Assembly (NCBI RefSeq): GCF_029633865.1
Contig: NC_079219.1
Location: 16,213,810-16,277,809, forward strand
Source: Lampris incognitus
Lineage: Eukaryota > Chordata > Actinopteri > Lampriformes > Lampridae
Direction: 5' to 3'
Length of the DNA stretch: 64,000 nt
Below the pieces are notes generated by a model, which saw only the letters and a program-made list of their open reading frames with translations, did no database searches and was not told where the DNA came from. Below, in pieces: positions 5,250-45,339 of this stretch. Each line of letters begins with the position of its first letter. Position 1 is the stretch's first letter. The translations under genes were made by a program, and so were the position numbers.

Positions 5250-5301
<52 letters not shown>

Positions 5302-8300
5302 TCATACCTAGGGGCAATTTAGTACGGCCGATTCACCTGACCCACATCTTTGGACTGTGGGAGGAAACCCGAGCACCCGGAGGAAACCCACGCAAACACA
5401 GGGAGAACATGCAAACTCCACACAGAGGACAACCCAGGACGACCCCCAAGGTTGGACTACCCCGGGGCTCAAACCCGGAACCTTCTTGCTGTGAGGCGAC
5501 CGCGCTAACCACTGTGCCACCCTGTGTATAAAATGTGCTATATAAATAAAGTTGTCTTGCCTTGCTTTATGGGTTTTCTGCCAATTACTGTTGTCTGCTA
5601 TCTCAACAATCTTCCAGATATCAGTTAATTCCTCAAAAAACAAATTTTAGTGTTTCTGAGTCCTTTAAACAAAAACCTAGAGCAAGATCGGTTAAGCACA
5701 AGCTATTAACAAGATACTGAGTTTTAATCTGCCACACTTTTGCCCTAAGAAAGGGAACAATGTGACTAGTCACCTCTCAGTTCACTGAGGTGTCACTACA
5801 CACAGCATCCCCAGTGGAAAAAGAACATGAAAAAAGACATGAAAATATCAATGTAACTCTCTGTAAGGACTGGAGGAGAAGGGAAAGAGGGAAGATGGAG
5901 GTGGTGAGAAGAAGACAGGGAGCAACAAGTAGGAGGTGAATAGAAATCAGGGAGGGACAGGGGTAGAGCAAGCACAGAAAGAGAAGACAGGACAACATTT
6001 CTTTTTACCAAACTTATGTTGGAGTCGAAGCTCATCTGGATGTATTTCCAGTCAAACTCTATCCCTCTGGCTCCTACCCAAAGAGGAAGGCACCTGGAAG
6101 GATGGAGGGAGGAATACAAATCAGCACACCGAAGTTAAGATCATTTCCAATAAATTTCACACATTTAGATATAAAATCATTTTTAGTCTCTATCTGTATT
6201 TAATACATTTTCATTTATTATCACTGAGGATATCAAATTTTAGTTCATGCACTGAGAGTTCCCTTCCAGGAATTGATGGAAAACTGGCTCCAAGTATACA
6301 AAAACACATTGCATGACTTAGGGCTGAATGTTTTGGGAAGATAATCATCTAATTGTGATTTTTTTTTTTTTACCAATATTGCGATGCGATTTAGTATGCA
6401 AAATTTTTTTTTTAATTTCCCCCATGTTTTCACCCCAATTATATCTGGCCAATTACCCCGCTCTTTTTGAGTCGTCCTGCTCGCTGCTCCACCCCCTCTC
6501 TGCCGATCTGGGGGGCACCCCGACCAACCAGAGGAGGCGCTAGTGCAGCGACCAGGACAAATACCCACATCCGACTTGCTACCCGCAGACATGGTCAACT
6601 GTGTCTGTAGAGACGCACGACCAAAGCAATTTTTTTTTCAAAGTTCATTATCTTCTGTGTTTTCCAGTAAGCACAGCAGTAAATCATTCTATAGTATGAT
6701 CAACACAACAGTCAACATATAAACTGCTCTTTCCTGTAGGCCAGGCCTACGTGTTATGATGAAATGAGATGAATTGATGCATGAATTGATATGAATAACA
6801 TATCTTCATTTAACTATTTCATTGTTAAAAGAAAAACCTTCAATCACAGAAGATTGACTGATTGGTTTTACTTCAAGCCTTTTAAACATGTACTATAATT
6901 ATCATGACTTACTTTTTAATAAAATCTGAAAAAGGAACAAAGCACTGCAGAACAACAGGCCTGGTGTGAACATTAATATGAAAATAAATACGAATCTTAC
7001 TGATCGCCAGTCAGTAACAAATCACACAAACTAAAGTGCATATTATATATATATATATATATATATATACACTACCGTTCAAAAGTTTGGGATCACCCAA
7101 ACAATTTTGTGTTTTCCATGAAAAGTCACACTTATTCACCACCGTATGTTGTGAAATGAATAGAAAATAGAGTCAAGACATTGACAAGGTTAGAAATAAT
7201 GATTTGTATTTGAAATAAGATTTTTTTTACATCAAACTTTGCTTTCGTCAAAGAATCCTCCATTTGCAGCAATTACAGCATTGCAGACCTTTGGCATTCT
7301 AGCTGTTAATTTGTTGAGGTAATCTGGAGAAATTGCACCCCACGCTTCCAGAAGCAGCTCCCACAAGTTGGATTGGTTGGATGGGCACTTCTTTGAGCAG
7401 ATTGAGTTTCTGGAGCATCACATTTGTGGGGTCAATTAAACGCTCAAAATGGCCAGAAAAAGAGAATTTTCATCTGAAACTCGACAGTCTATTCTTGTTC
7501 TTAGAAATGAAGGCTATTCCATGCAAGAAATTGCTAAGAAATTGAAGATTTCCTACACCGGTGTGTACTACTCCCTTCAGAGGACAGCACAAACAGGCTC
7601 TAACCAGAGTAGAAAAAGAAGTGGGAGGCCGCGTTGCACAACTGAGCAAGAAGATAAGCACATTAGAGTCTCTAGTTTGAGAAACAGACGCCTCACAGGT
7701 CCCCAACTGGCATCTTCATTAAATAGTACCTGTTAGAGCCTGTTTGTGCTGTCCTCTGAAGGGAGTAGTACACACCGGTGTAGGAAATCTTCAATTTCTT
7801 AGCAATTTCTCGCATGGAATAGCCTTCATTTCTAAGAACAAGAATAGACTGTCGAGTTTCAGATGAAAGTTCTCTTTTTCTGGCCATTTTGAGCGTTTAA
7901 TTGACCCCACAAATGTGATGCTCCAGAAACTCAATCTGCTCAAAGAAGTGCCCATCCGACCAATCCAACTTGTGGGAGCTGCTTCTGGAAGCGTGGGGTG
8001 CAATTTCTCCAGATTACCTCAACAAATTAACAGCTAGAATGCCAAAGGTCTGCAATGCTGTAATTGCTGCAAATGGAGGATTCTTTGACGAAAGCAAAGT
8101 TTGATGTAAAAAAAATCTTATTTCAAATACAAATCATTATTTCTAACCTTGTCAATGTCTTGACTCTATTTTCTATTCATTTCACAACATATGGTGGTGA
8201 ATAAGTGTGACTTTTCATGGAAAACACAAAATTGTTTGGGTGATCCCAAACTTTTGAACGGTAGTGTATATATATATATATATATATAATATATGCCGGG

Positions 8301-11300
8301 TGGTATTCAGCCTACTTGACCTTAACAAACTGGTGGTCAGGTTTTTAGACATGCTACTGTCATACATGATCTTGTGATGCTTTCTTAAATGCTGGAACAG
8401 GTTTGCAGTGTTGTCCCACGTTGTAGCTACGGTAGCAAGGCACATTCTGCACAATAGGTCCAGACAACCAATGTACTGCTCCTCTTTCACACTTAAGTCT
8501 CCTTTTCAGTGTTCGGGTCTGCCGAGGCCATTTTCACAAGATAATAACATTACTGCTTGAATCAAAGGGTAGCGTGGCAAGTTGTTTACTACTCTGCTCT
8601 CACTTGCATGTCACGTGAGCGTAGGGTAGTGTGTGTGTACGTGACCCCACATGGCCACGTTTCTGAGCCTGTGTTCTATTAAATTGTGATGTCGGTCTGA
8701 ATTCAATTTATCGTTCAGTCCAACTGCATGTAATAATTTAATTACATTCTCATCCCGAAGAATCTGGAACATAAAATTTGACTTCCAGGCCCATCCGTCT
8801 ACTGATCTGATGGGACTGTCACTTTGCCTCCGACACTACACTTTACTCTTACAGACTATTCGCACACTTGTACATAAGATATTTATCGGGATATACCTTC
8901 TGTATATTCCCCAGATTTTTAACTTTTTTTTTCAGATTTGATTGTATTTTATTATATTGATGTTCCACTTCTTCTGTTGTACAGTTTTCGGAGTTTACCA
9001 AAAATCATCGTACTTGAAGCACATGATGAATAAACTTTTTGAATCTTTGAATCTTGATCAGAACCGTGGTCCAGAGCTGCATAATTAATACAAAAAAATA
9101 TCTGACATACAAGATACCTGGACATGACAAGTTCAGCTGTTGCCCAGCCCATGGCAGCAACCATGATCTTGTACTCTCCTTTACCAGCATTGCGAGACAT
9201 GACAAGATGAAGGCCCAACAAGTCTGCAAGGTCCACTGTGGCCTTCATAAATTCCTGCAAGACACAAACAAACAATAGTGTAGTTTGTTTGGCCTAGCTT
9301 GGCCTGTTTGGTGTGCAGGATGCTCTTTCTGGATGTTTACAAATAAGCTTTACATTGCAACAGTAGTCACACAAAAAAATGACTGCATCAGAAGGTGCTC
9401 TCAGACATCTTATTGTGACACTGTCTCGCCACTTACCCCAACAAAGTCATAAACTCCAGCTCCTCCCTCCCACGTGGGGAAGAATGTGGCCAGAAACAGC
9501 ATCTGTGAAACAGAGTGATCAGGGAGCAGTATTTATATGGTGTCACACACAGAAACAGTCAATGTCTCATTGAACGTGACAACATGAACGTGATTTTGTC
9601 TGATTCTTAGTGGTACGCAGAGATGCCAAGTCACCAAAACATATCCATTAGCTGAAAGAGTCAGCTATTTCTTCTGAATCGGCCACCTTGATATCCCCTG
9701 CCAAGACAGCCTAAACTGAGCAATTAATCTGTCATAAACAGCACTGACACCATTCTAATACCAACTGTTTATGAAAACCCCTCAATTGCTCTCATTAACT
9801 GGCAAAACTGATAAAACGGCACACTTCAACAATGCAGTAATGTTGACAGATGCACTGATACCACTTAAGCATCTATGCCTTCACTTCAGGGTCTTAAGAA
9901 GACAACAGGACTTATACAAATGCTTAAACAGGCTTGTAGATTGTAAAGAAAGGCCAACATGGCAGACAGCTGTCATCGGTAAATCGATCTGTATACAAAT
10001 ATGAAGATTTAGAAGTATTTTTTGTTTCTTACCTGTAACATTTTTATTATCAAGTTAATGATTCTACAATTGAGTGAGATTATTTTTTGTACTGTGATTT
10101 ATTAGTACAGTTATAAACACTCAGAATCTTGTCAGACTGAAGCTGCTTTATGTGACAATAGATATTGATCATAACAGCTAGCCAACAGTTTGCAATAAAG
10201 TCTAAAATATGAGAGGTGTGCTGGAGAGCTAACTCACCTTACAGAGCTGAACAAACAGGTAGGTTGCGCCAGCCTGGACACACCTCCAGAATGCATTATA
10301 CTCTGAACTGAGGGATAGAACGCACACGCACGCACGCACACAGAGAAAGAAGAAACACACACAGATACACAAGCCCATGAAATTCGCTAATAGGACTGCA
10401 CATCAATAGGGACAGAAAAGATAATATGGCTACAGTAACTTCAACTCCACTGAAAAAAACACTTAATAGCAGGAAGAGGCAGTCATTCCAGGAGTTTGAA
10501 ATGATACAAGGGCTGGAAATCAACACACAGTCTGATACAGGAACGAGCCCACCACCCAACCAATATTCATAATACCTCCACATTCTAAGAGGATTGTCAG
10601 GAACCCCTCCCAAATCCCTGACATTCCAAAGCAGCTTAGCAGGAACCATATGAATGGCTCTTCAACAGTTGGATGTAAACTGATCAGCCAAAACATTAAA
10701 ACCACTGACAGGTAAGTGAATAACTTTGATTAACTTATTACAATGGCATCTGCCTAGGGGTGGGATATATTAGGCAGCAAGTGAACAGTTAGTTCTTAAA
10801 GTTGACGTGTTTGAAACAGAAAATATAGGCAAGCGTTAAGGATCTGAGTGACTTTGACAAGGGCCAAATTGTGATGGCCTGAAATCGAAGACTGGGTCGG
10901 AACATGTCCAAAACGGCAGGTCTTGTGGGGTGTTGCTGGTATGCAGTGGTAAGTACCTACCAAAAGTGGTCCAAGGAAGGACAACCAGTGAACTGGCGAC
11001 GGCCATGGGCACCCAAGGCTCACTGATGCGCATAGGGAGCAAAGGCTAGCCCGTCTCATCCGATCCCACAGAAGAGCTACTGTAGCTCAAACTGCTGAAA
11101 AAGTTAATGGTGTCTACAATAGACAGGTGTCAGAACCCAGAGTGCATCCCAGCTTGCTGCATATGGGGCTGTGTAGCCAGGAACCAGTCAGAGTGCCCAT
11201 GCTGACCCCTGTCCACTGCCGAAAGCACCTACAATGGGCACATGAACATCAGAACTGGACCATGGGGCAATGGAAGAAGGTGGCCTGGTCCAATAAACCA

Positions 11301-12490
11301 CGTTTTCTTTTACATCATGTGGATGGCGAGGTGCATGTGTGTCGTTTACCTGGGGAAGAGATGGCACCAGGATGCACTATGGGGAGAAGGCAAGCCGGTA
11401 GAGGCAGTGTGATGCTCTGTGCAACATTCTGCTAGGAAACCTTCGGTCCTGCATTCAGGTGGATGTTACTTTGACATGTACCACCTACCTAAACATCATT
11501 GCAGATCAGGTAGACCCGTTCATGGCAATGGTATTCCCTGATAGCAGGGCCTCTTTCAGTAGGATAATGTTCCCTGCCACACTGAAAAAAAATTGTTCAG
11601 GAATGGTTTGAGGAACATGACAAAGAGTTCAAGGTGTTGCCTTGGCCTCCAAATCCCCAGATCTCAATCCAACTGAGCATCTGTGGGATGTACTGGAAAA
11701 ACAAGTCCAATCTGTGGAGGCCCCACCTTGCAATTTACAGGACTTAAAGGGTCTGCTGCTAATGTTTTGGTGCCAGATACCACAAGACACCTTCAGAGGT
11801 CTTGTGGAGTCCATGTCTCGACTGATCAGAGCTGTTTTGGCAGCACAATATTAAGCAGGTGGTTTTAATGTTTTGGCTAATCGGCATATACCATCATGGC
11901 ACAATTACTCATATATCAAAAATATATTTTTGTCACTAGGAAATGAAAGTTTGCTATTGACTTTGTTATGAATTAATCTACTATTATATTTTCCTCTATT
12001 TAACCTTACTTTTAGCAGGTAGAAAACCCTAGAGGTAGAGAACCTCGTTTGGGAGGGTGGCCAGGCAAGAAAATGGAACAATAAATATGAGCAGTTTGTA
12101 AAAATATAAAAAGATATCTAAACATAATAGACATAACACAATCATGAAATTATTTATAAAAGATAGTTACAAAAATTACTGTTGTGAGAATTCAGCTCAT
12201 TAACCTGAATCTTAAACATCTCTAATAACCAACATGACTGTATTCTCTAGCACCCCAGAATGCAGTGCTTAAAATGTCACTCGTTCCATGTAGAAACTCT
12301 TTACTTGCAGGACAGGCAGGAACTGACAGATGAACATGAACCATTCCAATCACACAGTCATAAAACTTAACTCACACTGCTGACCTCTGTCTTACAGTCC
12401 CACAAATACTTACAGCCCACTGCACTTGTATGTGATGAAATAGGGGAAATATGCCAAAGCAAAACAGTTTCCAAAGTGAAAGAGTGTCAT
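4160..12490 (-). CDS. tmem147: Transmembrane protein 147 (seven coding exons, 225 aa)
   Basis: TMEM147 is a small multi-pass ER membrane protein of the NCLN-NOMO-TMEM147 (BOS/translocon-associated) complex, which helps multi-pass protein biogenesis. Coding exons: 12,490-12,414; 10,307-10,238; 9,502-9,437; 9,254-9,118; 6,093-6,009; 4,543-4,422; 4,280-4,160. All junctions are AG/GT and phases agree, totalling 678 nt including TAA. Landmarks in order: [81 protein letters not shown] and [14 protein letters not shown], ending [10 protein letters not shown]. Length matches the mammalian 224 aa closely; an extra two residues follow EGG in exon 3. No breaks are seen. Introns carry Tc1, LINE, SINE and hAT debris. 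It lies downstream of gapdhs in the same orientation, as in mammals. Confidence 0.95.
4830..5565 (+). mobile_element. Non-LTR retrotransposon 3' end, split by a later insertion
   Basis: The frame near 4,852-4,930 reads [20 protein letters not shown], the C-terminus of an L2/Rex-type ORF2, then a stop and a 3' UTR. The 3' terminus (TGTGCTATATAAATAAAG) continues only after the inserted element at 5,118-5,522, so the LINE is older than the insert. Confidence 0.65.
5118..5522 (+). mobile_element. SINE-like dispersed repeat with 12-bp target duplication
   Basis: This is a well-known fish repeat: TCCATCCATTATCTGACCCG at the left, an internal (CA)n (5,250-5,300), then GGACTGTGGGAGGAAACCC and GAGAACATGCAAACTCCACA, ending ACTGTGCCACCC. 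It is bracketed by identical 12-bp copies of TGTGTATAAAAT (5,106-5,117 and 5,523-5,534). The duplication length suggests LINE-mediated retroposition. The class is otherwise not certain. Confidence 0.7.
6405..6625 (-). mobile_element. Fragment of the tRNA-SINE family seen seven times here
   Basis: It shares GAGGAGGCGCTAGTGCAGCG and the CCAATTACCCC tail with the copies at 29.6, 42.9, 45.5, 46.0, 51.4 and 53.2 kb. About 150 bp of the middle and the tRNA-like head are missing. It lies in tmem147 intron 4. Confidence 0.75.
7070..8266. mobile_element. Foldback Tc1 element: two inverted left halves
   Basis: Arms 7,070-7,604 and 7,732-8,266 are each 535 bp and are inverted copies of one another; I counted only about four mismatches. 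Each carries the Tc1 terminus CACTACCGTTCAAAAGTTTG and the N-terminal DNA-binding part of a Tc1 transposase ([19 protein letters not shown] on +; the copy on - has an L at residue 7). The 127-bp loop continues the transposase frame through [11 protein letters not shown] to SLNST and then stops. The DDE catalytic part is absent. TA dinucleotides flank both ends, inside a (TA)n tract. It lies in tmem147 intron 4. Confidence 0.9.
8290..8490 (-). mobile_element. hAT transposase BED-finger fragment
   Basis: The minus frame keeps [20 protein letters not shown] followed by HLRKHH, a C2H2-type BED zinc finger as in hAT transposases. Nothing else of the transposase was recognised. Confidence 0.5.
8830..9057 (+). 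mobile_element. LINE 3' tail in tmem147 intron 4
   Basis: It ends in AATAAACTTTTTGAATCTTTG followed by a GAATCTT repeat, typical of a fish LINE 3' end. It stops only about 60 bp from the splice donor of tmem147 coding exon 4 (9,118). Confidence 0.5.
10676..11890 (+). mobile_element. Degenerate full-length Tc1 transposon
   Basis: The terminal inverted repeats share GCCAAAACATTAAAACCAC (left at about 10,686; right, in reverse, at about 11,858-11,876). Inside, plus-strand frames follow a Tc1 transposase with many frameshifts and stops: [60 protein letters not shown] and [16 protein letters not shown]. It is too broken to be active. It lies in tmem147 intron 1. Confidence 0.9.
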
Positions 12491-13969: not shown

Positions 13970-14325
13970 TCGACTGCTCCCGTTAGGGGTCGCCACAGCG
14001 GATCATCCGTTCCTATTTCTTCCTGTCCTCTGCATCCTCCTCTGTCACACCAGCTGCCTGCATGCCCTCTTTCGGCACATCCATAAACCTCCTCTTTGGC
14101 CTTCATCTTTTCCTGTTCCCTGGCAGCTCTATATTCAGCATCCTTCTCCCAATATACCCATCACTGTATACACATGTCCAAGCCATCTCAATCTTGTCTT
14201 TCCTGCTTTGTCTCCAAACCAACCTGAGCTGTTCTATCCTTCTTCGTCACTCCCAATGAAAATCTTAGCATCTTCAACTCTGCCATCTTCAGCTCCGCCT
14301 CCCGTCTTTTCGTCATGAATTAATT
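13935..14325 (-). mobile_element. RTE-type LINE 3' end
   Basis: It starts on the plus strand with a (CTA)n tail (13,937-13,968) and then reads, in reverse, the RTE C-terminal block seen at 537-693 and 16,131-16,497. Coding is degraded. It stops at a sequence matching the KRREAELKMAEL region. Confidence 0.7.
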
Positions 14326-14329
14326 CCAT

Positions 14330-15639
14330 GAGTATTCACCAGCAAATTGTTCTCACTATTGTTAAGGGAATATTAAATAATTGGTGTTCTATCAAGAAAA
14401 TCAATCCATGAAATCTAAATATGTTTGTGTGAAGCCAGTTTTGTAGATATAGTAGAAAGCCTCAGAGTGCACACAACGGAAAAAACAAATGGACAGTTTC
14501 AGTATCAACGTCTAACAACATACAGATAAATCATGACTGCAAAGATTCATTGGATGAATACACTCTATTTAAAGCTTTAAAATTGTTTTTTAATGGGATA
14601 TGGACATTTCAACTAATTGGCTCATAATCTGTGATTGGTATGTGTGAGATTGAATTTCTGTAGGACACCACTGGATATCATAAAGGTATTAGGGATACTG
14701 AATAGACTGCAAATTGTTTTGGTGGGGATTTCAACTACATCGAAACCCCCAAATAGAAGCTGTCTGTTAGGATTTCCCAGTAAATTGAGACAGCACGTCA
14801 TATTGTATGTCTTCAACATAGTGGCCAAACAGCAAAGAAAATAGCAGGTAGTCGTGAGTTTATGGACATAATTAAGTTGTTGTGGCTAGTAAGCAGATAT
14901 GGAAGATTCCTCATCACTGCAGCCCTCCTCCCATCCCAAGTCAAGGTAGACATAAGTTTGACTGATCTCAAGCACACAATACAAAGCAAGTTAAAAAAGA
15001 AAAAGAAAAAAGAGTGTGACTTGGGAAGCCATGCATGACCCATGTACTCATGTCATTCACAGTACTCAGTTTCACATTTAGCCAGTATCTTAGAAACACA
15101 AAGTGACAAAAGCATAATAAATGATACTGACTGCAAAGCATGCACGCAAGCATCCACTGCAGCTAAACAGTTCAACTACACAATTGCAAAAGCGCATGAA
15201 TGTAAGAACAATGGCATAACTTCGTGGACTCTACATTTGTATAGGTTTGTAAAAAATAAACAATAAATATCAATTCAAACTAGAGGTCTAAAAATGAACA
15301 ATAAATATCAATTCAAATGTATAGATTTGTAAAATCCAACACTTCAGTTCAGCTACACAAACAGTTGCATACCTTTGTGAACTCTACATTTGTATAGATT
15401 TGTAAAAATGAACAACGAAACTTGAATTAAAACAGCCACAAAACAATTGTAGAAAGCGCTATTAATAACAGGGATGTGAAATAACGTGTGTGCAGCTGAT
15501 AGGGAAGGCGTTTCAGCGATGGTTGTCTGATGCAGGGCAACATTCTATAAAAAAAAGTCAAAATGTAGAGAATAAAATCAAATTAAATATCGTATTTATA
15601 TGTTAACTTGTCCAACACAGCCACACTATATGAATCTCC
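14330..15639. other. Intergenic stretch with a diverged tandem repeat
   Basis: No gene was recognised. At about 15,170-15,440 a unit containing CTCTACATTTGTATAGATTTG recurs, and AACAATAAATATCAATTCAA occurs twice, so this is a diverged local tandem duplication. The rest is AT-rich with no clear features. Confidence 0.5.
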
Positions 15640-15929
15640 ACGAATCTCTCCGTGACGTGCGTGACGTGATCTTGATGACTCTGATTGGCTCGCACTCCCT
15701 CCGTAAGCAGTCGTCCGTTGATTTTGGGTTGACGCTAGAGCCAACGGGGTGTAGGCACGGAAGTAGCCGTGATTGGCTGTTGCGTCGGCCAATAGACAGC
15801 GCGGAACCTCGAAGCGCACTGACTTGAAACAAACGGTGCGCACTGAAACATTTCGCTAGCTAGCTTACAGCTAACCTTAACATTGCTAGGTCGTACTGTA
15901 ACGATAGCTAACGTTAACGCTTGCTAACA
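15640..15929 (+). promoter_or_regulatory. Probable promoter of the CARF-MULE-SWIM gene
   Basis: A CpG-rich island lies directly upstream of the ATG at 15,930. It has two GATTGGCT boxes (about 15,683 and 15,770) and GGCCAATAG (about 15,788), which are NF-Y type CCAAT elements, an ETS-like CGGAAGTAG (about 15,759), and TGACGTG half-CRE motifs (about 15,654 and 15,663). No TATA box is seen. This is a typical dispersed housekeeping promoter, judged from motifs only. Confidence 0.5.
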
Positions 15930-17323
15930 ATGGAAATTCAAAAAGAGTTTAAATCGAGGAACGATTTGAATGACCATATTAGGTCATTTCAAACCTCGTC
16001 AATGACGAAATCCGTCGTCTATGGGACACACCAGCATTTTTCCAGTGATTGTAAGTACAGTACAGTAGCTATAAGGAATCACTACAAGCAGTCGCTGTTC
16101 GCTAGCGAACTAGCTAATAGAGTTAGCTATACTACTGCTACTTTCGGCTGCTCCCGTTAGGGGTCGCCACAGCGGATCATTCGTTTCCATTTCTTCCTGT
16201 CTTCTACATCTTCCTCTGTCACACCTGCCACCTGCATGTCTCCCCTCACCACATCCATAAACCTCCTCTTTGGCCTTCCTCTTTTCCTCTTCCCTGACAG
16301 CTCCACATTTAGCATCCTTCTCCCAATATACCCAGCATCTCTCCTCCACACATGTCCAAGCCATCTCAATCTTGCCTCTTGCATTGTCTCCAAACCGTCC
16401 AATTTGAGTGGTCCCTCTAATATAATCGTTTCTAGTCCTGTTCTTCTTCGTCACTCCCAGTGAAAATCTTATCATCAACTCTGCCACCTCCAGCTGTGGT
16501 AACGTTAGCTAACGTTACTCAATAAACTTCACGAAAATGTATGTTGTGGCACTAACAGGAAAATATTGATAAATTAACATTATATGTTTATGAAGATACA
16601 CAGAGATGTAGTTAGCTAACGTTCATGAAAATGAAATGTTATGTCACTGACAGGAAAATATTGATAATTCAATATTCTGACAGGAAAAACTGATAATTCA
16701 ATATTTTCCTGTCAGTGACATAACGTTCATTTTAATGAGCGTTATGTAATAGCCACGTTAACTTGGTTAAACTTCATGAAAATATGTGTCACTGACAGGA
16801 ATATATTGATAAATTAACTTTAATGTTTATGATAATGTTAATTTTTAGATCACTTTTTCTAATATACTGTTATAACGTTTAAATCATTTACACACTTTTC
16901 CTCAGCCTTTGGTTACATGTTTGATACTGTATAGCTAGCTAATTAGGTTTAGTAATAATGCTGGGTAAGCTATTGTTATGGTTATGAATACCAAAAAGTG
17001 AGGGGAAATTCTTGTGTGCATGTGATTGATGTCTCTACTGGCCAGTCACCAAAAGATCTGCTCCTATAACTATAATCTGACTCCACCAAGTAAAAACGGA
17101 ACTTCTAGTGAAGCTACACCTCAACACTGCTAAGGTCAACTTGGTATTGCTTTATATATAGTTTATACCCACTGATTTATTACAGTTTTTTTTACTGTAC
17201 TTGCTAGCTAGTAAAAAATTGTGGTAGCTAGTATTAGTAGTAACTTAGTAGTTGTAGTAATAGTACTGTATTATCTCACATGATTGTTCATCTTGGTAGT
17301 TAAATGAATGATGAATAATGTTG

Positions 17324-17355
<32 letters not shown>

Positions 17356-20300
17356 GTTTTGGTTTTCTAGCTTGGCAGCCTACATCCAAAGACCGGGTGT
17401 TTTGGGAATGGGACAAGGGGGATGATACTCCAGCTATCCAGTTTACTGGTGTGCCCTTCATCTTTATTGGGACCAAAGAGATGGGGTGTCATCAGGGCAA
17501 GGATAGTTCAAAGAGCAAGAAACACCGGGCTTCAGCTAACGGCTCAGAGGCTAATGTGAGTAAGATGTTTGTTTACTCCATCTTTTTCTAAAGAAAAGTG
17601 ACTGGCTGACTCTGGCCTATGAAGAATATAACAATGTTTCTGAACCATAAAGGAGTGATTCCATCAGATATCAGACAGGCTGTCAAGCCTAAGACACATT
17701 CTTTAACCACCCATATGAATAAATATGAAATTGGGACCCTGAAGTCCAAGTGGTTTATGAAAAATGAAGCTTCAGTTACGGTTCAGAATGGCCAACTGTA
17801 GTCTGTAAAGTCTGTAAAACTCCCAAATCTTGTCTGATTCAAGATGGAAAATTTAACAGGATACCAACTCAAGCCCTGATTCAAACAGAACCCGCGATAA
17901 GTTTCGCATTAGCGGTCTGCTTGATAGTACTCCACTGAATGGCAAAAATGCTGCGGTTGGCCTGAGCTCACTTCAAATCAAGTGCAAACTCAGCCCGACT
18001 GCACCACATTAGACGTTTGCCAGAGTACTATCAAGCGGACCGAATCGGGGCCAATGTGAGATGAATATAACAATGTTTTTGAAACATAAAGGATACTGAC
18101 TTAGTCAGATGAAGAATATGTTTTTGAAGCATAACACTATTGAACTATACATCATATGTGACATACATTCAAGAAACAGGATCATTCTTTTGGCAAGAAA
18201 AGGAAGCTTCCCCAGAACACTAAAAAAGTTGGATGTCCAGCTGTTATCACTATAACACGGATTGCTGCATTCCCGGGATTCAAGGTTTGGATTTTTTTTT
18301 TTTTTTTTTTTACTCCCAGAATGTATAATATGATTAGGAGAATTGTAATGAAACAAGACAAATAAGTCGATAACTGCAACATATTCCTATGTGTATTTCC
18401 AATGATTGTGTTCCTTAGTCTAAGTTAGGCAGTCATTCAGTTCATAATCCTGCAGTGATGATTATTGTTTCTCACATTTATTTATTTTCAGTTAGCTGAG
18501 AATAAGACCAGGGCAAAGAAGGAAGCTTCAGCTAGGCTTAGACGGGCTCTAGACAGGGATCCCGTGGTCTGGGAGAATCAGTTTGTTGTGAGGACTCCTT
18601 GTGTCAGTGCCCATGTTGGTCACCCAGTTCATGGAGAGGTAACTCCAGTAAAATGATCTGAATTGAAAGAATATTTTTGATGCTTTTCTGTTTTACTCTG
18701 TTAGGTAAACAAGAAAAAGGCATTCTTGTTCAATGTAATAATTGTGTCCCCATTACTGTTCTGAAGGTGGCTTCTGTTCGAGAGCCAGTGGACAGCAGGG
18801 TGGTGAACTATATTACTGACCAAGCAAAAGCAGGAGTCAGGAAGTGCAACGAAATGAGGTGGCATGTCTCAAATTTTGTGAAGTCGGAGTTGCTCCGAGG
18901 AGAAAGTTCCCCCCCCTCTATCGAGACGCAGATTTTGTCTTAGTGACAAAGATCTGCAGAATATCATGATGAAGGCAAGAGAGCAGATCCACCATTCAAA
19001 CATTGACCAAGTCAATCTTCAGGTGAGAAATGTACAGTGCTGCTTGAAAGTTTGTGAACTCTTGGAATTGTTTGTTTTTCACATATTTTAGACATACATC
19101 CACATTAGATCTTCATATAAGTCTAATTTTCTGATAAAGGATGACCTGATTAAAGAAAAACACATTAATTGAAATATATTTTTGTCAGTTTTTGTCTGTA
19201 ATAATTTGACCGATATTCCCTACAAAGGAAAGCATTTAACAATCAGTTTATCCTATGCTGGCAACTGCTGCAGCCTTTTTTTTTAATTATTATTAACGCT
19301 ATTCAGACGCCCACTAGGGGCATCGGCACCAGCATAATGAAAATTATATATACTAATCAGCCGGCACCATGACCACTAGGGGGCCTTTGTCAGAATGAGG
19401 CAACACTGCTGCATCTGTACATTAGTAAATAAGTTGTCATAATTCTCTGTTTGTGTAGATTCTGTTTCAGAAGTGGAAGGAGCAAGCCGCTCATGACAAA
19501 TTCCATCTGAGAGTCCAGACTGAGACGGAGAATTTCCTGCTCTGCTATCAAACAGAGTGGCAGCAGAGGCTTCTCCATTTGTACGGGCAGGATATTTGCT
19601 TGCTCGATGCCACATACAGGACAATCCGCTACTCCCTTCCTTTGTTCTTCCTGTGTGTGGAGACAAATGTGTGTTATGTAGTGGTTGGGGTGATGGTGGT
19701 GCAAGAGGAGACCACCAATGCGGTGAAGGAGGGTCTCCAGATCTTTAAGACCTGGAATGAGGATTGGCGGCCTGCTCACTTTCTGGTGGATTACAGCTTG
19801 GTAGAAATTCAGGCAGTGGAGGCAGTTTTTGAAGGTACATCACATATTGTTTTGTAAGCCATGGAAATTTGAGGCATAGAAAGATTTAATTTTTCTAATG
19901 GATATGTTTTTCACAGGCTCACTTGCGATCCTGTGTGATTGTCATCGGGAAAAGGCATGGGCAGAGTGGGTTCGGAAGCAGGACCATAGGATCAACAGCA
20001 AGGAGGAAGTGCTGAGCAAGATGAGAGCCATTGCCAAGGCAGAGACACAAGCGGAGTATGAGATGGCAGTGAAGAGCCTGATGGACAGTTCCTGCTGGAG
20101 AGAGAACCGCCTCTTCAGAAATTGGTTCTCTGAGATTTGGCTTGCAGAGGCAAAGGTGAGAATATTCTGTGTGGTCAATTTTTTTTTCTAAATTTATTTC
20201 CTAGTTTTTCCCCTTATCCCACCTAATTAACCCAATAGCATATGGCCGGAACTCTTGTCGAATAACTCCCCTGGCTCACATTTCCACAGGAAGGAGATAG

Positions 20301-22615
20301 TCGTAACACCAGCTTCCTTCACACTCGTGTTGGCTGCTCTTGCTATTTTACACGCTGACGCCTCGCATGGATTGCATTACCTCCAGGCCGCGAAGGAGAC
20401 GTAGGGAGAATGCTTTCGGTTGCTTGGCTGCAGGCGCCCGGATGGGCCAGAGGGGTCGCTGGAGAATGATGAGTCCCCCAACGCTACACCGATCTACACC
20501 CACTATCCCTCGGGTAAGGGTGGCCTAATGAATGCCTTACCCCGTGGACGCTCTGGCCTTGACCGGTTACGGCGAGTCTGGGATACGAACCTCCCAGCCA
20601 CATGAGCGGATTACAAGAACGGCGGTTTATTCTGCTTGGCCATCAGAGTGATGTGTGGTCAATTAAAAGGAATAGTTCACCCTGAATCAATGTCATATAA
20701 TTGCGCACACCATTACATTTGGGCTGGGACAGGGATTGCGCAATCACCAACAAAGTAAGAAAAATATTGTGTTAAAGTCAACAGAAACATCAAATGGTGA
20801 TTTACTGGACGCATTTCATCTATATTAAATGTAAGAATTAACATATCCAATATGCGAAACTCAGCAAACTACTCCTCTAACTGTCTAAAACAACATTTCT
20901 ATTCTTGATTTTTTTTTTGGTCTGGTCTTCCATTCTTTTTTTCTGTTATTCATGAAAAAGCTGAATTTGCACAATATTTCAAAGCTATGCCTTAAAAGAG
21001 AGGCAACCAAGTATGCTGCCCCAATATATTTTGTAAAACACAATACTGTTGACTATTTTGTATTTCCAGGTGGTTTTATGTCAGAATATGTTGGATTTTG
21101 TCATGTTTTGCAGAGATGGGTTACTGTCTTCAAGGCTGAGACATTAAACATACATCTAGCCATCACAACCAACAATGGGCTGGAGAGACAGAATGAGTCT
21201 TTCAAGCACAGGCATCTTGAGAACTTCATAGACAGCTCTCTGTCGGAAATGATGCATGTTGTGGTGAAAGACTACATACCACAGATGCAAAAGAGGTAAG
21301 ATAGTTATACACAGTATCATGACAACAACAATACCTTTCTTTCTAATTAATTTACTCAAAAGTAAGCACCATATTTTTGTTATCCATTTATGTTGTTTCT
21401 CTTAGTATATTCCAGGTACACAGAATTGAATGTGAGATCATCATCCGGCTTCAGGAAATTCCATGCTGCTGTACCCATCTGCCTACATGACAAACCCAGA
21501 GACATGGTGAAACATGTTGTTAGTCGGATGGAGAGTAGTCTTAGTGGAAAAGATGTCATGCAGATTGATGATGGGGAGTTTGTCGTTAAGAGTGAGACTG
21601 AGAAGGGCAGGTCATACAAACTTCACTTTGGGATGGAAGACAGAATGCCAGCATGTGAATGTGACGACTGGAAACACTACAGATTGCCTTGCAAACACTT
21701 CTGCACAGTGTTTCAGTTCGTTCCTGGATGGACATGGCAGCAGCTGTGTCCAAGGTACAGGAATCAACCCCTGTTCTCTTTGGACTCCATCTGTCTCTCT
21801 GAAACCTCCAGCCCTGTCACAGCCACTGAAAACACCGATGAGTCAGCTGTTGTTAGCGAAGGTAAATTTTTCTTTATTGTATCTGAAAGTCTGACATTAC
21901 AAAGTTAACTACTTTCTAATAGCCTGCAAAATAGTTACCTCTTATTTAAAGTAAGACACAACTTCTTATCCTGCTATCAAATATCAATATTTGAATAATG
22001 GCTACTTTGAACTTTCATCTCAAGTTCTATAACTTTGTGTACACAGAGACAACAGCAAGCCCAGACCCAGAGACAATGCCTGTGGAGTTGCCACCATGTA
22101 GGAGGTCCAGAAAAACAACGCTCAGAAACAAGTGTGTTGGCCAGCTTAAACTTCTCATTGACAAAGTTAACTTGTTGACTGAGGAAACACATCTTAAATA
22201 TGTTAGTGGGAAACTATGCACTCTTTTGGAAGATGTAGACTCTCTGATTCCAAAAGAGGCAGGGATTCCCATATATGATAACAGCAAAATGAGAAAAGTC
22301 AACATCACCCCAAAGCCGTTACAGGGGAGAACATGTGGCAGACCAAAGGGGAGATTTAGTCACAGAGTTGGTGCTCACGCAGAACTGATGCCATCAACAT
22401 ATAGAGTGCGGCTTAAGTTGCCCACCAGTACTACCACCCTGCCTCCCACAGATGTGTCAAGCCCAACTCTCCACCACCAGCCTGCCTCCATCCAACACCA
22501 GCCTGCCTCCGCCCACCACCCGCCTGTCACTGCCCACCACCAGCCTGTCGCTGCCCATCACCAGTCTGTCTCCGCCTGCCACTCGCCCGCCTCCGCCCAC
22601 CCACCACCACCCTAG
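15930..22615 (+). CDS. CARF/ALS2CR8 domain - MULE transposase - SWIM finger protein (ten exons, about 874 codons)
   Basis: Exons: 15,930-16,050; 17,371-17,555; 18,180-18,284; 18,492-18,638; 18,767-19,022; 19,459-19,834; 19,917-20,155; 21,114-21,295; 21,416-21,861; 22,047-22,615. All junctions are AG/GT and phases match. Residues about 30-186 follow the CARF (ALS2CR8) pattern: VYGTHQHF, FTGVPFIFIGTKEMGCHQGK, CPAVITITRIAAFPGFK. Residues about 310-510 follow MULE transposases: D321 (LLDATYR), D382 (FLVDYSL), the C/H motif LCDCHREKAW and E500 (NNGLERQN). A SWIM finger (CxCx9CxH) has C617, C619, C629 and H631. The tail has about six 7-residue AHHQPVx repeats. Multiple introns and a CCAAT promoter suggest a domesticated gene that may bind DNA. 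One extra C in the C8 run at 18,909-18,916 (exon 5) puts the frame out; restoring phase needs a single-base loss, so it is either an assembly error or a recent break. Function is unknown. Confidence 0.8.
16131..16497 (-). mobile_element. RTE-type LINE 3' end in intron 1 of the CARF-MULE gene
   Basis: The plus strand starts with a short CTACTGCTACTTT tail. The minus strand then reads the RTE C-terminus: LMIRFSLGVTKKNRTRN, WLGHVWRRDAGYIGRRML, RRFMDVVRGDMQVAGVTEED. It is the best-preserved of four RTE scraps in the window. Confidence 0.8.
16618..16745. repeat. Imperfect inverted repeat (hairpin)
   Basis: The arm GTTATGTCACTGACAGGAAA (16,639-16,658, continuing ATATTGA) recurs in reverse complement up to about 16,724, with weaker matching outwards to 16,618 and 16,745. 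A third direct copy of the core lies near 16,785. It sits in intron 1 of the CARF-MULE gene. Confidence 0.7.
17325..17355. repeat. (TAA)n microsatellite
   Basis: About ten TAA units lie just before the acceptor of exon 2 (17,371) of the CARF-MULE gene. Confidence 0.95.
19034..19210. mobile_element. Tc1/mariner-type terminal fragment
   Basis: It begins ACAGTGCTGCTTGAAAGTTT followed by GTGAAC, a terminus familiar from fish non-autonomous Tc1/mariner elements. No matching right end was found. It lies in intron 5 of the CARF-MULE gene. Confidence 0.4.
19308..19385. promoter_or_regulatory. Two CTCF-like core motifs
   Basis: CGCCCACTAGGGGCATCG (about 19,308-19,325) and GACCACTAGGGGGCCTT (19,371-19,387) both resemble the CCACNAGGGGGC CTCF core. 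They lie about 60 bp apart in the same orientation in intron 5. This is motif similarity only. Confidence 0.3.
20181..20651 (-). mobile_element. tRNA-derived SINE with 13-bp target duplication
   Basis: On the minus strand a tRNA-like head with box B-like GGTTCGTATCCC (about 20,590) leads into a body of about 400 bp ending A-rich. Direct copies of TGTGTGGTCAATT (20,168-20,180 and 20,652-20,664) bracket the 471-bp element precisely. It is a different family from the seven-copy SINE. It sits in intron 7 of the CARF-MULE gene. Confidence 0.75.
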
Positions 22616-22701
22616 AGGGGGGATAGGACACTTTGCCTCAAGTGCCACCCTCTCTTTTCACCCACCCATACCCCACCTGATTATCTACACTATTTTGTGA
22701 C

Positions 22702-23256
22702 TCAAGTCATGTGTAATTTTTTGATTATGGCTTGCTTTTTTGATGAGTATGTCAATGAATCATAATCAACCATTAATCATATTGTTATGACATAATAATT
22801 CATGAATCAAATGCTGATATTTTGTCTGTAATTGAGTACACTCTCCAGCTAATCTAGGATATAACCAGAAAACACTTTGATCCCTGATGATTTGAGTTGT
22901 GCACCTTTGCTCCGTGAGAAAGTGAGTAAATGGAGTGAGAAACTGAACTAAAAAAAGATAATTGAAATTGAGCCATGTCTTGGATTATGGCCCAATTTCT
23001 AGAATTTTTTTTTTTTAGTTGCTCACGCCACTTACCGACTCCGCTCAGGGGAATCCATATGGAGCAGAGGTACACAACTCCAGTCTTCGAGGACCAAAGA
23101 CTTTTTTCTTGATTAGCGGAAAAGTATACTCAGGTATTACTGACATAATAGCAGCATTTGATTCATGAATAATTATTATTTGATAATAATATGATTAATA
23201 GTGAATTATGGTTAATTGTCGTGCAAGTCATAATCTAATAGTTACACATGACTTGA
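22702..23256. mobile_element. Long inverted-repeat MITE after the CARF-MULE gene
   Basis: The left arm (22,702-22,821) starts TCAAGTCATGTGTAA and includes CATTAATCATATT and ATTCATGAATCAAATGCTG. The right arm (about 23,147-23,256) is its reverse complement with modest divergence. The 325-bp centre has no coding. It begins only 87 bp after the gene's stop codon, so it probably forms part of the 3' UTR. No clear target duplication or canonical poly(A) signal was seen nearby. Confidence 0.7.
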
Positions 23257-23419
23257 CAGTCATAAAACAGCATAGATGATCAGGTTAAGAACAGAGGGTG
23301 GAGGTTTTGCTTAACAAACATGTGGCAGCTCTTTTGTTTTGTATTGCCCTTCTTTCTTGCCAGGTGATGTGTGAAAAGTGCTATAGAAATAGCAATAGCA
23401 TGGTTATCAGTTCTGCACT

Positions 23420-23610
23420 CCAGCACTTTGGATTTGAAGTAATACAATGACTGAAAAGTGCAGAATATCAGCTTTAATAATTTTCATCTATATCAGGTGA
23501 ATCGTTTAGAAATTACAGCACATTTTGTACATAGTCTCCCCATTTTAGGGTACCAAAAGTATTTGGACAAAGTAACATTATGTACCATATGGCCGGAATT
23601 CAGACCTCTA
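23420..23610. repeat. Dispersed DNA-element fragment
   Basis: The stretch with AAAGTGCAGAATATCAGCTT and TTTTAGGGTACCAAAAGTAT resembles a common fish non-autonomous DNA transposon. Ends are not resolved. Confidence 0.35.
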
Positions 23611-23636
23611 TATTGCTCACATGTTCTGCTTGATAG

Positions 23637-23838
23637 TGTAATGTTTCTTATTATAAATGAAGAAACTTGGGTTCAACAATTACAACTATTTATTAAAGTA
23701 CTGTGACAACTCATCTAACATGCATCAAGTATCGTGTGGTGTCTTCTTCTGCCGCAATCCTACAGACTACTAAATTCGCGGCTACTGCCCTCAGGTGGTA
23801 GGTATTGGTGTAAATATTAGTATTAACTCCTTTAGCCA
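23637..23838 (-). repeat. Gypsy A 3' LTR
   Basis: About 202 bp, TG...CA bounded. It carries the poly(A) signal AATAAA on the minus strand within ACTTTAATAAATAG. It matches 26,312-26,451 over their shared part with scattered substitutions. Confidence 0.8.
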
Positions 23839-24046
23839 CATCCCCTTTCCTTTAGATGTAGCTATACACAAACTATTCATCTAGCCTTAGTAGCAACTTC
23901 AAACGGTAATGAAAACATTCTTGTCACCCACAAGCATGATCAACATTTTTTCAACAGCATAAACAATCATATGTTTCTATTTTTAACACCATAACCAGAT
24001 TCCTTTTACTAAGCGTTCATGTTTGATTTCAGTCTTTCTTTCAAGT

Positions 24047-24112
24047 CTGTGAATGTTCTCATTCATCCAGATCATGGTTAGCCAAAGGAGTTGAATCAAG
24101 TGCAACCGGACT
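24047..24112 (-). mobile_element. Penelope 3'-end scrap inside gypsy A
   Basis: A 66-bp stretch starting CTGTGAATGTTCTCATTCAT matches 26,585-26,650, the 3' end of the Penelope-like element, in the same orientation. It lies between the gypsy 3' LTR and integrase. Confidence 0.65.
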
Positions 24113-24563
24113 TTCTTTCAAGACAACTCACAAGGGAACAGCTTAGTTTTTTTCTTCTTTTTTTTTAACATTGGCGGTTCAGCGGATGCAGTGTAGGTTG
24201 GATCTTCATTTGTTTGTTCTTGCAGTGTCTCTCGTGTTTTCAGCAAGCTCCTTCGATTCCTCCTCAGGATTTGACCATCCTCTGTTCTGACTGTGTAGGA
24301 TCTTGGACTTACTTCCTCCAGAATAGTGGCTTTCTTATTCCAGCTGTTGGAATCTTCGAGTCATACTGTCATCTCTTGCCAGTGGCACTAAGCTTCTCAA
24401 TCGATGACTTGTCATAGTTTGCTTTTTGTCTCTTTTGCAGATGCTTTTGTTTCTGTTTCACCTCTTTGTGCTTCTTTTGCTCTTCAGTGCAGGGAAGCGT
24501 GGTGCGTAGCCTACGTCCCATTAGAATCTCAGCAGGAGACTTACCATGTTCAAGCAGCGAAGC

Positions 24564-25366
24564 TCAGTAACTCAGCAGAGCTAGATATGGATCTGAGCGG
24601 CTGTCTTTTGCTTTCTTGAGCAGATGTTTGACTATTTGAACTCCTTTTTCTGCTTTACCATTTGACTGGGCATACAGGGGTGTTGAGGTCACATGTTGAA
24701 AGTCATACTCTTTGGTAAAGTCCTGAAACTCTTTGTTGCTGTAGCATGGTCCATTGTCACTGTAGACGATCTGTGGGATTCCATGTCTTGCAAGTATTGA
24801 CTTCATGTGTCTAACCACACAAATAGCAGGTATGCTGAGAAGCAGCGCCATCTTTGGATAATTTGACTGGTAGTCCATCACCAGCAGGTAATTCTTTCCA
24901 TCCAGGTGAAACAGGTCAGTCCCAACTTTATGCCACGGCTTGTCTGGTAGGTCTGTGATTGCCATTGGCTCTTTTGGCTGTTTTGCATAATACTTCAGAC
25001 AGGTCTCACAGCTTGAGACCAGCCTATTGATGTCTGCATTGATTCCTGGCCAATAAACGGCTGTTCTGGCCCTTCTCATGCATTTTACCATACCGAGGTG
25101 CCCCTCGTGCAGCCTTTTCAGCATCTCTGGTCACAGTGACTGAGGAATGACAATTCTGCTTTTTTTCTGAGTAGCAGCCCATTGACGATGCTCAGCTCAG
25201 CTCTCATGTTGTAATACTGTTGACATTCACCTCTAGGCCAACCCTCATTCAGATTCTTGATGACTTTCTGTAGGCCTGTGTCATTTTCTGTTTCAGCTGC
25301 AATCTGCTTCGATTTCATGTCAGACACGGGTAGCGATTCAGTAATCAGGTTCACGTGGAGAGTCAC
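24564..25366 (-). pseudogene. Gypsy A integrase remnant
   Basis: After the spacer region (VTLHVNLITESLPVSDM) come an HHCC zinc motif (HEGHLGMVKCMRRAR ... CETCLKYY) and a catalytic core with D in KVGTDLFHLDGKNYLL, D in YSDNGPCYSN and E in NGKAEKGVQIVK. The core triad is present but a frame break follows the zinc region and the C-terminus is cut. Confidence 0.8.
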
Positions 25367-26284
25367 GTCTGTCTCTGTGGAGCTCCCACCGTGTGCTTGC
25401 CTTTGTTCACACTTAATTGTTCAGTCCCTTTAGGCGTGACATCTTCCTGCGCTACCATTCCCACGAAGAATGAATCACAGAGATCAGTTTCTTCCACTGC
25501 ATGCACACGTTCACCTCGGCTTTGTTTCCCCTTGGAAAAGCATTGCTTCATGTAGTGATTCTGTCCTTTACATTTATTACAGACTTTGCCATAAGCTGGG
25601 TATTGTTTTGGTGCACGTCGAGTGCCACATCTTTTACAATTAAAAGTCTCTAAGCCCCTTTGCTGTTTTGACTGCCATAATGTTCTCTGTTTCTGTGCCC
25701 ATGCAGACACAGTGGCTATCGCTGCATTGTCTTTTTCACTTTCCTTCGCGCCACCACCGAACGTTCTAGCGCGTTGCAGGACTACCTCACTAGCATGGCA
25801 TATCCTCACAGCTGCAGCTAAGGTAAGGTCCGTTTCTCGTAGTAATCTCTCTCTCACTTGTCATTAATGCCAAACACTCATTCATCCCGGATCATTGAAT
25901 CATGCAGCTCTCCAAAATTGCACGTCTTAGCTTCCAATTTCAAGTCCGTCAAAAAAAAGTCAACGCTCTCACCATTTTGCTGCGTGCGTATGCGAAACAC
26001 GTCCATTCGAATGTCTCGTTTTTCTTTGGCGAACAATGTTCATCAAACTTCTTGACAACTTCGACGAACGTGTCGTTATGAGCTGCGTCGGTGTAAACAA
26101 ACGTGTTGTATACCTCCAATGCTTGAGGTCCCGCGACGGTAAGTAGTGCAATCTTCCGTGCGTCCGGTTTGTCATCCAGTCCGAGGGCATGCAGGTACAG
26201 CATGCATCGCTGTATGAACGTCCGCCACTCGTAGTCCACATTTCCAGTCCAATTCACAGCGTCAGGCGGCTTCAAACTTTTCAT
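25366..26284 (-). pseudogene. Gypsy A gag remnant
   Basis: The frame starts at 26,284 with MKSLKPPDAVNWTG and continues through a capsid-like region (FIQRCMLYLHALGLDD). It shifts frame near 25,950-25,850 and then has RERLLRETDLTLAAAVRICH and a zinc knuckle CNKCKGQNHYMKQC near 25,580. The knuckle Cys/His spacing fits a retrotransposon nucleocapsid. Confidence 0.75.
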
Positions 26285-26311
26285 GACGGCTGTATACCAC
26301 TCCTGGTACCA

Positions 26312-26451
26312 TGTAATGTTTCTTACTATAAATTAAGAAACTTGACTTCAACAATTACAACTATTTATTAAAGTACTGTGACAACTCAGCTAACACGTGC
26401 ATCAAGTATCCTGTGGTGTCTTCTTCTGCCGGAATCCTACAGACTACTGTA
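26312..26451 (-). repeat. Gypsy A 5' LTR, truncated
   Basis: About 140 bp matching the R/U5-side part of the 3' LTR, ending at GACTACT. The outer part of about 60 bp is replaced by a tRNA-SINE. Confidence 0.8.
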
Positions 26452-33580: not shown

Positions 33581-33722
33581 AACAAAAATAGCAAATATAC
33601 AAAATATCTTTGTATCACTCAGTTCACTGTCAAATTCACTCTATTTAACAAATTAACCCTCAAATGAACATTCTAAATAAACAAATGAACCATTTTCACA
33701 TTATTGCTATATTAAACCTATC

Positions 33723-37732: not shown

Positions 37733-45339
<7,607 letters not shown>

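Follow-up and report, generated by a model that had tools for sequence, protein, structure and literature searches.

The window (the whole stretch of 64,000 nucleotides of Lampris incognitus DNA that was analysed) contains a ten-exon gene that joins a CaRF (ALS2CR8) domain to a MULE transposase core, and the same genome harbors a DNA transposon with the domains and introns of this gene. With moderate confidence, we regard the window locus as an intron-bearing gene from this CaRF-MULE lineage, most likely resident in the host genome (domesticated).

Structure of the window gene and its predicted product

The gene extends from 15930 to 22615, and all of its introns have GT/AG borders (Table 1). 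Motifs that we take to be those of tmem147 (4226–12490, minus strand) and GAPDH (38190–44268, minus strand) lie on either side of it, in accord with an earlier note on this DNA that placed the gene between tmem147 and gapdhs.

Table 1. Features of the window gene (positions in the window)
Feature	Position	Strand	Remark
CpG-rich start region	15400–16199	+	o/e 1.22
Exon 1, ATG at 15930, short N-terminal region	15930–16050	+	
Exon 2, CaRF domain part 1	17371–17555	+	GVPFIFIGTKEMGCHQGKD
Exon 3, CaRF domain part 2	18180–18284	+	KKVGCPAVITITRIAAFPGF
Exon 4, CaRF domain part 3	18492–18638	+	HVGHPVHGE
Exon 5, end of ALS2CR8 model	18767–19022	+	holds frame break
Eight-C run, one-base frame break relative to relatives	18909–18916	+	within exon 5
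Exon 6, RNase H (MULE/ZSWIM) core	19459–19834	+	D321 and D382
Exon 7, CDCH motif, then insert	19917–20155	+	
Dispersed repeat, intron 7	20177–20648	.	92–93% identity to 39 other listed places
Exon 8	21114–21295	+	E500 (NNGLERQNE)
Exon 9, SWIM finger	21416–21861	+	CECDDWKHYRLPCKH
Exon 10, C-terminal region, proline/histidine-rich repeats	22047–22615	+	stop TAG

Pfam searches detected ALS2CR8 (PF15299; cut-off 28.9 bits) in the window protein: the portion preceding the frame break scored 121 bits, and a version continued across the break, with X in its place, scored 137 bits over positions 2–233 of the 235 in the model. The ZSWIM1-3_RNaseH-like domain (PF21056) scored 46 bits and MULE (PF10551; cut-off 27.6 bits) 28.8 and 28.4 bits, which confirms that a CaRF domain and a MULE core share one ten-exon gene. 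The residues D321, D382 and E500, the CDCH motif, and CxCx9CxH from C617 are all present where the earlier note had located them. Its claim of a complete MULE core with a SWIM finger holds for the core, the catalytic triad being present, whereas the finger (PF04434; cut-off 19.6 bits) is borderline at 19.7 and 19.1 bits. A FAR1 match of 14 bits, below the cut-off, appeared in a single window query.

The exons total 2626 bases, a length not divisible by three, and the frame upstream of the break in exon 5 meets a stop at 18941–18943. The eight-C break had been overlooked when the introns were described as AG/GT-bordered and in compatible phases throughout; the borders stand, but the phases do not. 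The corresponding stretch of exon 5 lies in a single frame in all seven copies compared from the tandem arrays (L019 twice, L020–L024), and is likewise unbroken in the C14 and C2 copies. Because all of these read through, three explanations are left for the break in the window copy, namely an assembly error, a polymorphism and a real lesion. The remaining exons are open and their splice sites are canonical; the intact frame expected of a domesticated gene is interrupted, in the locus as assembled, by this one break.

CaRF-MULE transposons in the same genome

The copy of the transposon on contig C14 is 10.75 kb long and carries 39-bp inverted repeats at both ends, 36 of the 39 bases being alike. 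The transposon tip occurs 46 times genome-wide, and 40 of these occurrences form 20 inverted pairs, compared with zero occurrences in the backwards control. A 9-bp target duplication is a hallmark of MULEs. Exact duplications of this length were found in four of the 11 copies checked, and one more matched at 8 of 9 bases; in the other six, including C14 and C2, the duplication is imperfect or lacking. Mismatched flanks, used as a control, agreed at no more than 6 of 9 bases in 110 pairs. The edge of the element (GGTR) was fixed after the flanks had been inspected, identically for all 11 copies.

In alignment, the C14 element has the D, D, CDFH and E residues together with those of the SWIM finger, and its introns 3–8 match those of the window gene in both position and phase. 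Its first exon is weakly like exon 1 of the window gene, 20 of 500 shuffles being equally good. The frame of the C14 element is broken in exon 6, and a stop in exon 7 is common to three displayed array copies (L019, L022 and L023). Terminal inverted repeats, 9-bp duplications and a DDE transposase, which together define a MULE family, are all found among the C14 relatives, and CaRF-MULE transposons in this genome have been mobile recently. A transposon of the same genome, with terminal inverted repeats of 39 bp and target duplications of 9 bp, supports the proposal of a transposase that carries a CaRF-like domain as its native DNA-binding part. A segmental duplication, at one point considered as the source of the C14 and C2 copies, was dropped once the inverted ends were found. 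Two single-protein scans revealed no relatives on viral contigs.

Host gene or relic

Unlike its mobile relatives, the window locus combines a DDE core with neither detected terminal inverted repeats nor multiple copies. No close copy was found by protein search, nor by a weaker DNA search, in which the repeat of intron 7 dominated the 7188 candidates and 40 were scored. Likewise, no terminal repeats were detected at the locus, and no inverted pair of at least 16 nt has its arms before 15930 and after 22615 within 14000–25000. High copy number with terminal repeats, which the earlier note had named as the mark of an active transposon rather than a gene, is thus true of the family, but not of the window locus. 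Within the limits of the DNA search, a single copy without terminal repeats is what a domesticated gene should present. The domestication proposed earlier is accordingly plausible and unproven, with the lack of a close copy and of terminal repeats on one side and the frame break on the other.

We propose that the window gene descends from the CaRF-MULE DNA transposon lineage. Judging from what is known of MULEs and CaRF, in the transposon the CaRF domain would recognize the ends of the element, leaving cutting and joining to the DDE core. The window copy is probably unable to move as a unit, because neither terminal repeats nor a close sister copy were detected. It would persist as a host gene with a DNA-binding product that keeps the catalytic triad and perhaps regulates transcription or its own mobile relatives. 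On this view, the eight-C break would stem either from the assembly or from a lesion that is recent or polymorphic.

The main rival to this reading, less probable but a serious contender, is that the window locus is a decaying relic: an older CaRF-MULE transposon would have left an immobile copy here, and this copy would now be a young pseudogene. The broken frame of exon 5 suits such a relic, as do the breaks in its relatives (exon 6 of C14; the exon 7 stop in L019, L022 and L023). However, the other window exons are open with canonical splice sites, and neither terminal repeats nor close sister copies were found. Furthermore, the repeat in intron 7 is 7–8% diverged from its relatives, yet the window exons contain no in-frame stop. 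Counting both sides of the break, the gene has 874 codons without an in-frame stop, for which a neutral simulation gave P values of 0.038 at 3.5% substitution and 0.0015 at 7%, a count biased by the choice of the gene model for open frames.

Silent sites are saturated between the window gene and the transposon and arrays (pS 0.78–0.81), with pN at 0.29–0.38, a pattern that suits a host gene but equally fits a line of active transposases. The CpG o/e of the start region is the highest in the 64 kb (800-bp windows, 100-base steps); this too suits a host gene, but it is no proof of a host promoter, because the 5' end of the transposon is also CpG-rich (o/e 1.04–1.06). Introns were rejected as proof of domestication, since the transposon has the same introns. 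It is highly improbable that the locus is a still mobile autonomous element with unrecognized terminal repeats of another family: its catalytic triad is intact and relatives of the same architecture were mobile recently, but the searches described above yielded neither a second close copy nor a spanning inverted pair.

Origin of the CaRF domain and comparison with known systems

A CaRF gene on C2 has no core apart from a stub of 30 residues, which matches the core start without gaps. This stub is sited as expected and ends at the first catalytic Asp; against the window protein it scores 62, compared with at most 48 in 2000 shuffles. Pfam detected no MULE domain in the C2 gene. A search with the 3' part of this gene found no second gene with a stub; apart from itself, it returned weak matches to the C18 and C30 arrays (E 0.18–0.74), which lie outside the stub. 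The stub favors a descent of CaRF from a transposase. We give about even chances to the following scheme. The DNA-binding part of a MULE transposase would be the source of the orphan CaRF domain; CaRF-MULE transposons with introns would persist in vertebrates and have been mobile recently; and their lineage would have produced host genes of full length, the window gene among them, as well as CaRF regulators that have no core but retain a fossil stub of it. The suggestion that such an element was the ancestor from which CaRF-type genes obtained their domain is thus supported, although not settled, by the C2 stub.

The reverse direction, with CARF as the host regulator from which a MULE acquired its CaRF domain, seems to us rather unlikely. 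In its favor, CaRF is old, since PMC2877716 reports it from 35 vertebrates as well as amphioxus and Nematostella, each species having a single gene product, and MULEs tend to acquire fragments of host genes, according to an account in PMC6446971. Against it stands the 30-residue core stub in the C2 CaRF gene, whose orthology to CARF is putative. Identification of this gene as the mammalian CARF orthologue through WDR12 and ICA1L, which we assume to be neighbors of CARF, was unsupported: the neighbor search gave an NLE match on C11 and ICA69 matches on C12 and C27, none of them near C2:140 Mb. Close to the NLE match, C11 carries an ALS2CR8 exon that is very like one on C25 and of the multi-exon, transposon-like kind, and that therefore does not decide the orthology of the C2 gene.

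The CaRF domain was also considered as a hidden zinc domain of the FAR1, WRKY-GCM1 or FLYWCH type, but no significant profile similarity was found: none of six CaRF protein queries matched FAR1, and hhalign gave a probability of 0.2% for CaRF against a three-row FLYWCH alignment. Single-sequence and profile searches revealed no CaRF relative among solved structures. Neither at the transposon end nor in the start region of the window gene did the reported CaRF consensus YSANAACGAGGC match better than shuffles, and a CaRF consensus site in the transposon end was therefore rejected.

Among the matches listed, no publication links CaRF/ALS2CR8 with MULE, SWIM, transposase or transposon, and none was found on ZSWIM3 together with MULE. 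A CaRF-bearing transposon with terminal inverted repeats and target duplications provides a testable origin for the CaRF domain. This single genome houses the transposon alongside tandem arrays, a single-copy gene of full length and a CaRF gene devoid of the core, which allows a comparison of the steps leading from transposase to regulator.

The window protein shares with MULE transposons the RNase H core (D, D, CxxH, E) and the SWIM finger, and the CaRF-MULE family of this genome shares their terminal inverted repeats and 9-bp duplications. In contrast to MULEs described elsewhere, the window gene and the C14 element have introns at no fewer than six shared places, and their DNA-binding part is CaRF/ALS2CR8. 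For MULEs, PMC6446971 tabulates FAR1 and other fingers, and it has zero occurrences of CaRF or ALS2CR8. The host here is a vertebrate, whereas that source doubts MULEs in vertebrates; the concrete copies described here bear on whether MULEs are truly absent from this group. MULEs are rare in animals according to a statement in PMC8277862, and teleost MULE-MuDR elements had already been annotated and counted in the data given by PMC4746887.

CaRF itself, the calcium-response factor and BDNF regulator, is characterized in PMC2877716 as a transcription factor that has an activation domain and shows no homology to others. Its domain is nearly full in the window protein (2–233 of 235 in PF15299), which differs from CaRF in having a transposase core and a SWIM finger after this domain. 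ZSWIM1 and ZSWIM3 share the SWIM finger, and the RNase H part of the window protein best matches ZSWIM1-3_RNaseH-like (46 bits); to our knowledge these proteins have no CaRF domain, in contrast to the N-terminal one of the window protein. In domesticated regulators of the FHY3/FAR1 type, a DNA-binding domain, a MULE core and a SWIM finger are retained in a host gene. According to PMC10027918, MULE-derived FHY3 genes occur in some animals, but not in human. The DNA-binding domain is FAR1 in those regulators, whereas it is CaRF in the window protein.

CaRF-bearing elements in the host genome

Searching the 1.48 Gb of the host genome (537 contigs) gave at least 127 MULE-domain matches above the Pfam cut-off. 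CaRF, MULE and SWIM exons occur together on contig C14 and at 87.6 Mb on contig C2, parts of this set were seen on C27, C25, C6, C1, C5 and C3, and relatives of the window gene form arrays on C18 and C30. Between the C14 and C2 copies, identity is 98.4% across 9.0 kb, introns included, and it starts abruptly around 170 bp upstream of the start codon; the first 35 bases are found again, inverted, at the far end. With the flanks included, the ends (GGTRATGGCTATCGGACAG...) form a 39-bp inverted repeat (36 of 39 bases match), and the C14 element is 10.75 kb long. The 27-base tip has 46 occurrences in the genome (up to three mismatches), compared with zero for a backwards control; 40 of them form 20 inverted pairs, and six are single. 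The span is only 0.26–1.76 kb in 15 of the 20 pairs, a length that suits internally deleted copies. With an element edge fixed after inspection of the flanks, identically for all 11 copies in which both flanks were read, a 9-bp target duplication is exact in four and agrees at eight of nine bases in one more, while the best of 110 mismatched pairings, used as a control, reached six of nine, once. The duplication is imperfect or absent in six of the 11, including the C14 and C2 copies, and both of these long copies have coding breaks. Derivatives are 94–100% identical in their matched parts. Thus, the inverted ends, 9-bp duplications, MULE core and closely similar derivatives make the CaRF-bearing element, judged from its sequence, a recently mobile MULE, and the transposase with a CaRF-type DNA-binding part that the earlier note proposed has a counterpart in the same genome.

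Loci L026–L030, L032 and L033 belong to two other MULE families that have a FLYWCH finger (one member of each family scanned); in the first, four copies are approximately 96.5% identical to a fifth over 3.3–3.8 kb, and GGTCCTAT-type repeats lie close to the copy ends. A third MULE-type family is represented by L034, whose frame scores 32 bits for MULE in Pfam, with Transposase_mut and ZSWIM1-3 below cut-off; L031 resembles it.

The window gene and its paralogues

The ten exons with GT/AG introns ascribed to the window gene in the earlier note stand, but they sum to 2626 bases and include a one-base frame break in exon 5 that the earlier note overlooked; the upstream frame reaches a stop at 18941–18943. 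The counterpart of the stretch at the break lies in a single open frame in all seven array copies compared; the same holds for the C14 copy and the C2 copy. With X placed at the break, the product has 874 residues, and this read-through protein scores 137 bits in Pfam for ALS2CR8 (PF15299; model 2–233 of 235), 46 for ZSWIM1-3_RNaseH-like, 28.4 for MULE (cut-off 27.6) and 19.1 for SWIM, slightly below the cut-off of 19.6. When the two sides of the break are scored apart, the values are 121, 46, 28.8 and 19.7 bits, respectively. D321, D382, E500 and the SWIM cysteines occupy the positions previously assigned to them. The CpG ratio of the start region (1.22) is the highest among the 800-bp windows, and the transposon 5' end is likewise CpG-rich (1.04–1.06). 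The gene has tmem147 on one side and a GAPDH gene on the other, both recognised by peptide motifs. This neighbourhood suggests a vertebrate host, and the placing in fish follows the earlier note.

Features of the window and of locus L025 (window positions unless stated)
Feature	Position	Strand	Remarks
Window gene, ten exons	15930-22615	+	GT/AG introns
Frame break, one base	18909-18916, exon 5	+	run of eight C
Dispersed repeat, intron 1	16138-16495		71-89% identity to three other places among the matches listed
Foldback/MITE-like element	22702-23256		immediately 3' of window gene; inverted arms ~100 nt together
tmem147 motifs	4226-12490	minus	gene recognised by peptide motifs
GAPDH gene motifs	38190-44268	minus	gene recognised by peptide motifs
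Two Tc1/mariner-like fragments	7070-8280		inverted orientation, between tmem147 exons; named by look
Another Tc1/mariner-like fragment	near 10690-11880		named by look
Open frames	24564-26332 and 32364-35555	minus	LTR-retrotransposon-like integrase and CCHC knuckle; also within, LINE-type reverse transcriptase-like frame and second LTR-type polyprotein-like frame; named by look
C2 CaRF gene, single large exon ending in core stub	L025:2840-4490 (C2)	minus	apparent GT/AG intron and short coiled tail follow

Window exons are 42–67% identical to the C14 copy where no intron is read through, and introns 3–8 have the same places and phases in both; the arrays have these introns too, with some splice sites damaged. 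A protein search of the host genome found no close copy of the window locus, the next best matches to parts of the gene being at most 73% identical (mostly 40–62%), and a DNA search, flooded by an intronic repeat, found none among the 40 candidates scored out of 7188. No transposon-type terminal repeat was found at the locus, nor do inverted repeats of at least 16 nt bracket the gene within 14000–25000. High copy number with terminal repeats, named in the earlier note as pointing to an active transposon rather than a gene, was not found at the window locus; among its relatives, the transposon family with its 20 inverted pairs shows it. The C18 (0.33–6.45 Mb) and C30 arrays, including loci L019–L024, consist of an amplified paralogue of the window gene, with at least 43 matches over exon 4 and a spacing of 5.88 kb at the C30 start. 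A stop in exon 7 is common to the three copies inspected, and thus these look like pseudogene arrays.

Silent sites between the window gene and the transposon and arrays are saturated (pS 0.78–0.81) and pN is lower (0.29–0.38), which, as read from these substitutions, shows long constraint on the CaRF-MULE lineage, not specifically on the window-gene branch. For pairs of transposon copies, and for pairs of array copies, the ratios are 0.63–0.96, the C14–C2 figures being inflated by frame breaks. Intron 7 of the window gene contains a dispersed repeat with 92–93% identity to at least 39 other places. Coding drift of 3.5–7% since the repeat arrived would be expected to produce 3.3 to 6.3 in-frame stops, and none is seen (P 0.038 to 0.0015); because the gene model was picked for open frames, this is suggestive only.

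The CaRF part would recognise DNA, and the core of the transposon would cut and join it; the product of the window gene may serve the host as a DNA-binding protein. In the transposon end, no match to the CaRF consensus site was better than those in shuffles.

A core-less CaRF gene and a possible origin of the domain

According to passages of PMC2877716, CaRF has no homology to other transcription factors and is a single gene product in each species searched. The best ALS2CR8 match in the host genome (108 bits) is an intron-poor gene, C2:140168569–140169228, in which the CaRF domain is followed by 30 residues that align without gaps to the first part of the transposase core; they end in ICLVDASY (compared with ICLLDATY), which includes the first catalytic Asp. 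With the whole tail used, this stub scores 62 against the window gene (shuffle maximum 48; 0 of 2000 shuffles as good), and its scores against the array and transposon references were each equalled by one of 2000; the score of the stub alone was reached by 0, 0 and 1 of 2000 (window, array and transposon reference), where two of the three references are composites and all counts are for a site picked from a weak tblastn hit (E 6e-4), a choice that the shuffles leave uncorrected. This gene has no MULE domain according to Pfam, no second gene with a stub was found in the host genome, and synteny with mammalian CARF was looked for and not found. We read this one gene as a regulator that probably lost its transposase core, which would favour the direction from transposase to CaRF.

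No paper linking CaRF/ALS2CR8 to a MULE or transposon was among the matches listed, in a search outside of which most subscription journals lie. In excerpts of earlier reports, vertebrate MULEs are doubted, with no mention of CaRF/ALS2CR8 there (PMC6446971), MULE-MuDR elements are counted in teleosts (PMC4746887), MULEs are described as rare in animals (PMC8277862), and MULE-derived factors are reported from some animals, though not from human (PMC10027918). Set beside these, the host genome adds MULEs that carry a CaRF domain, together with a host gene that probably descends from them.
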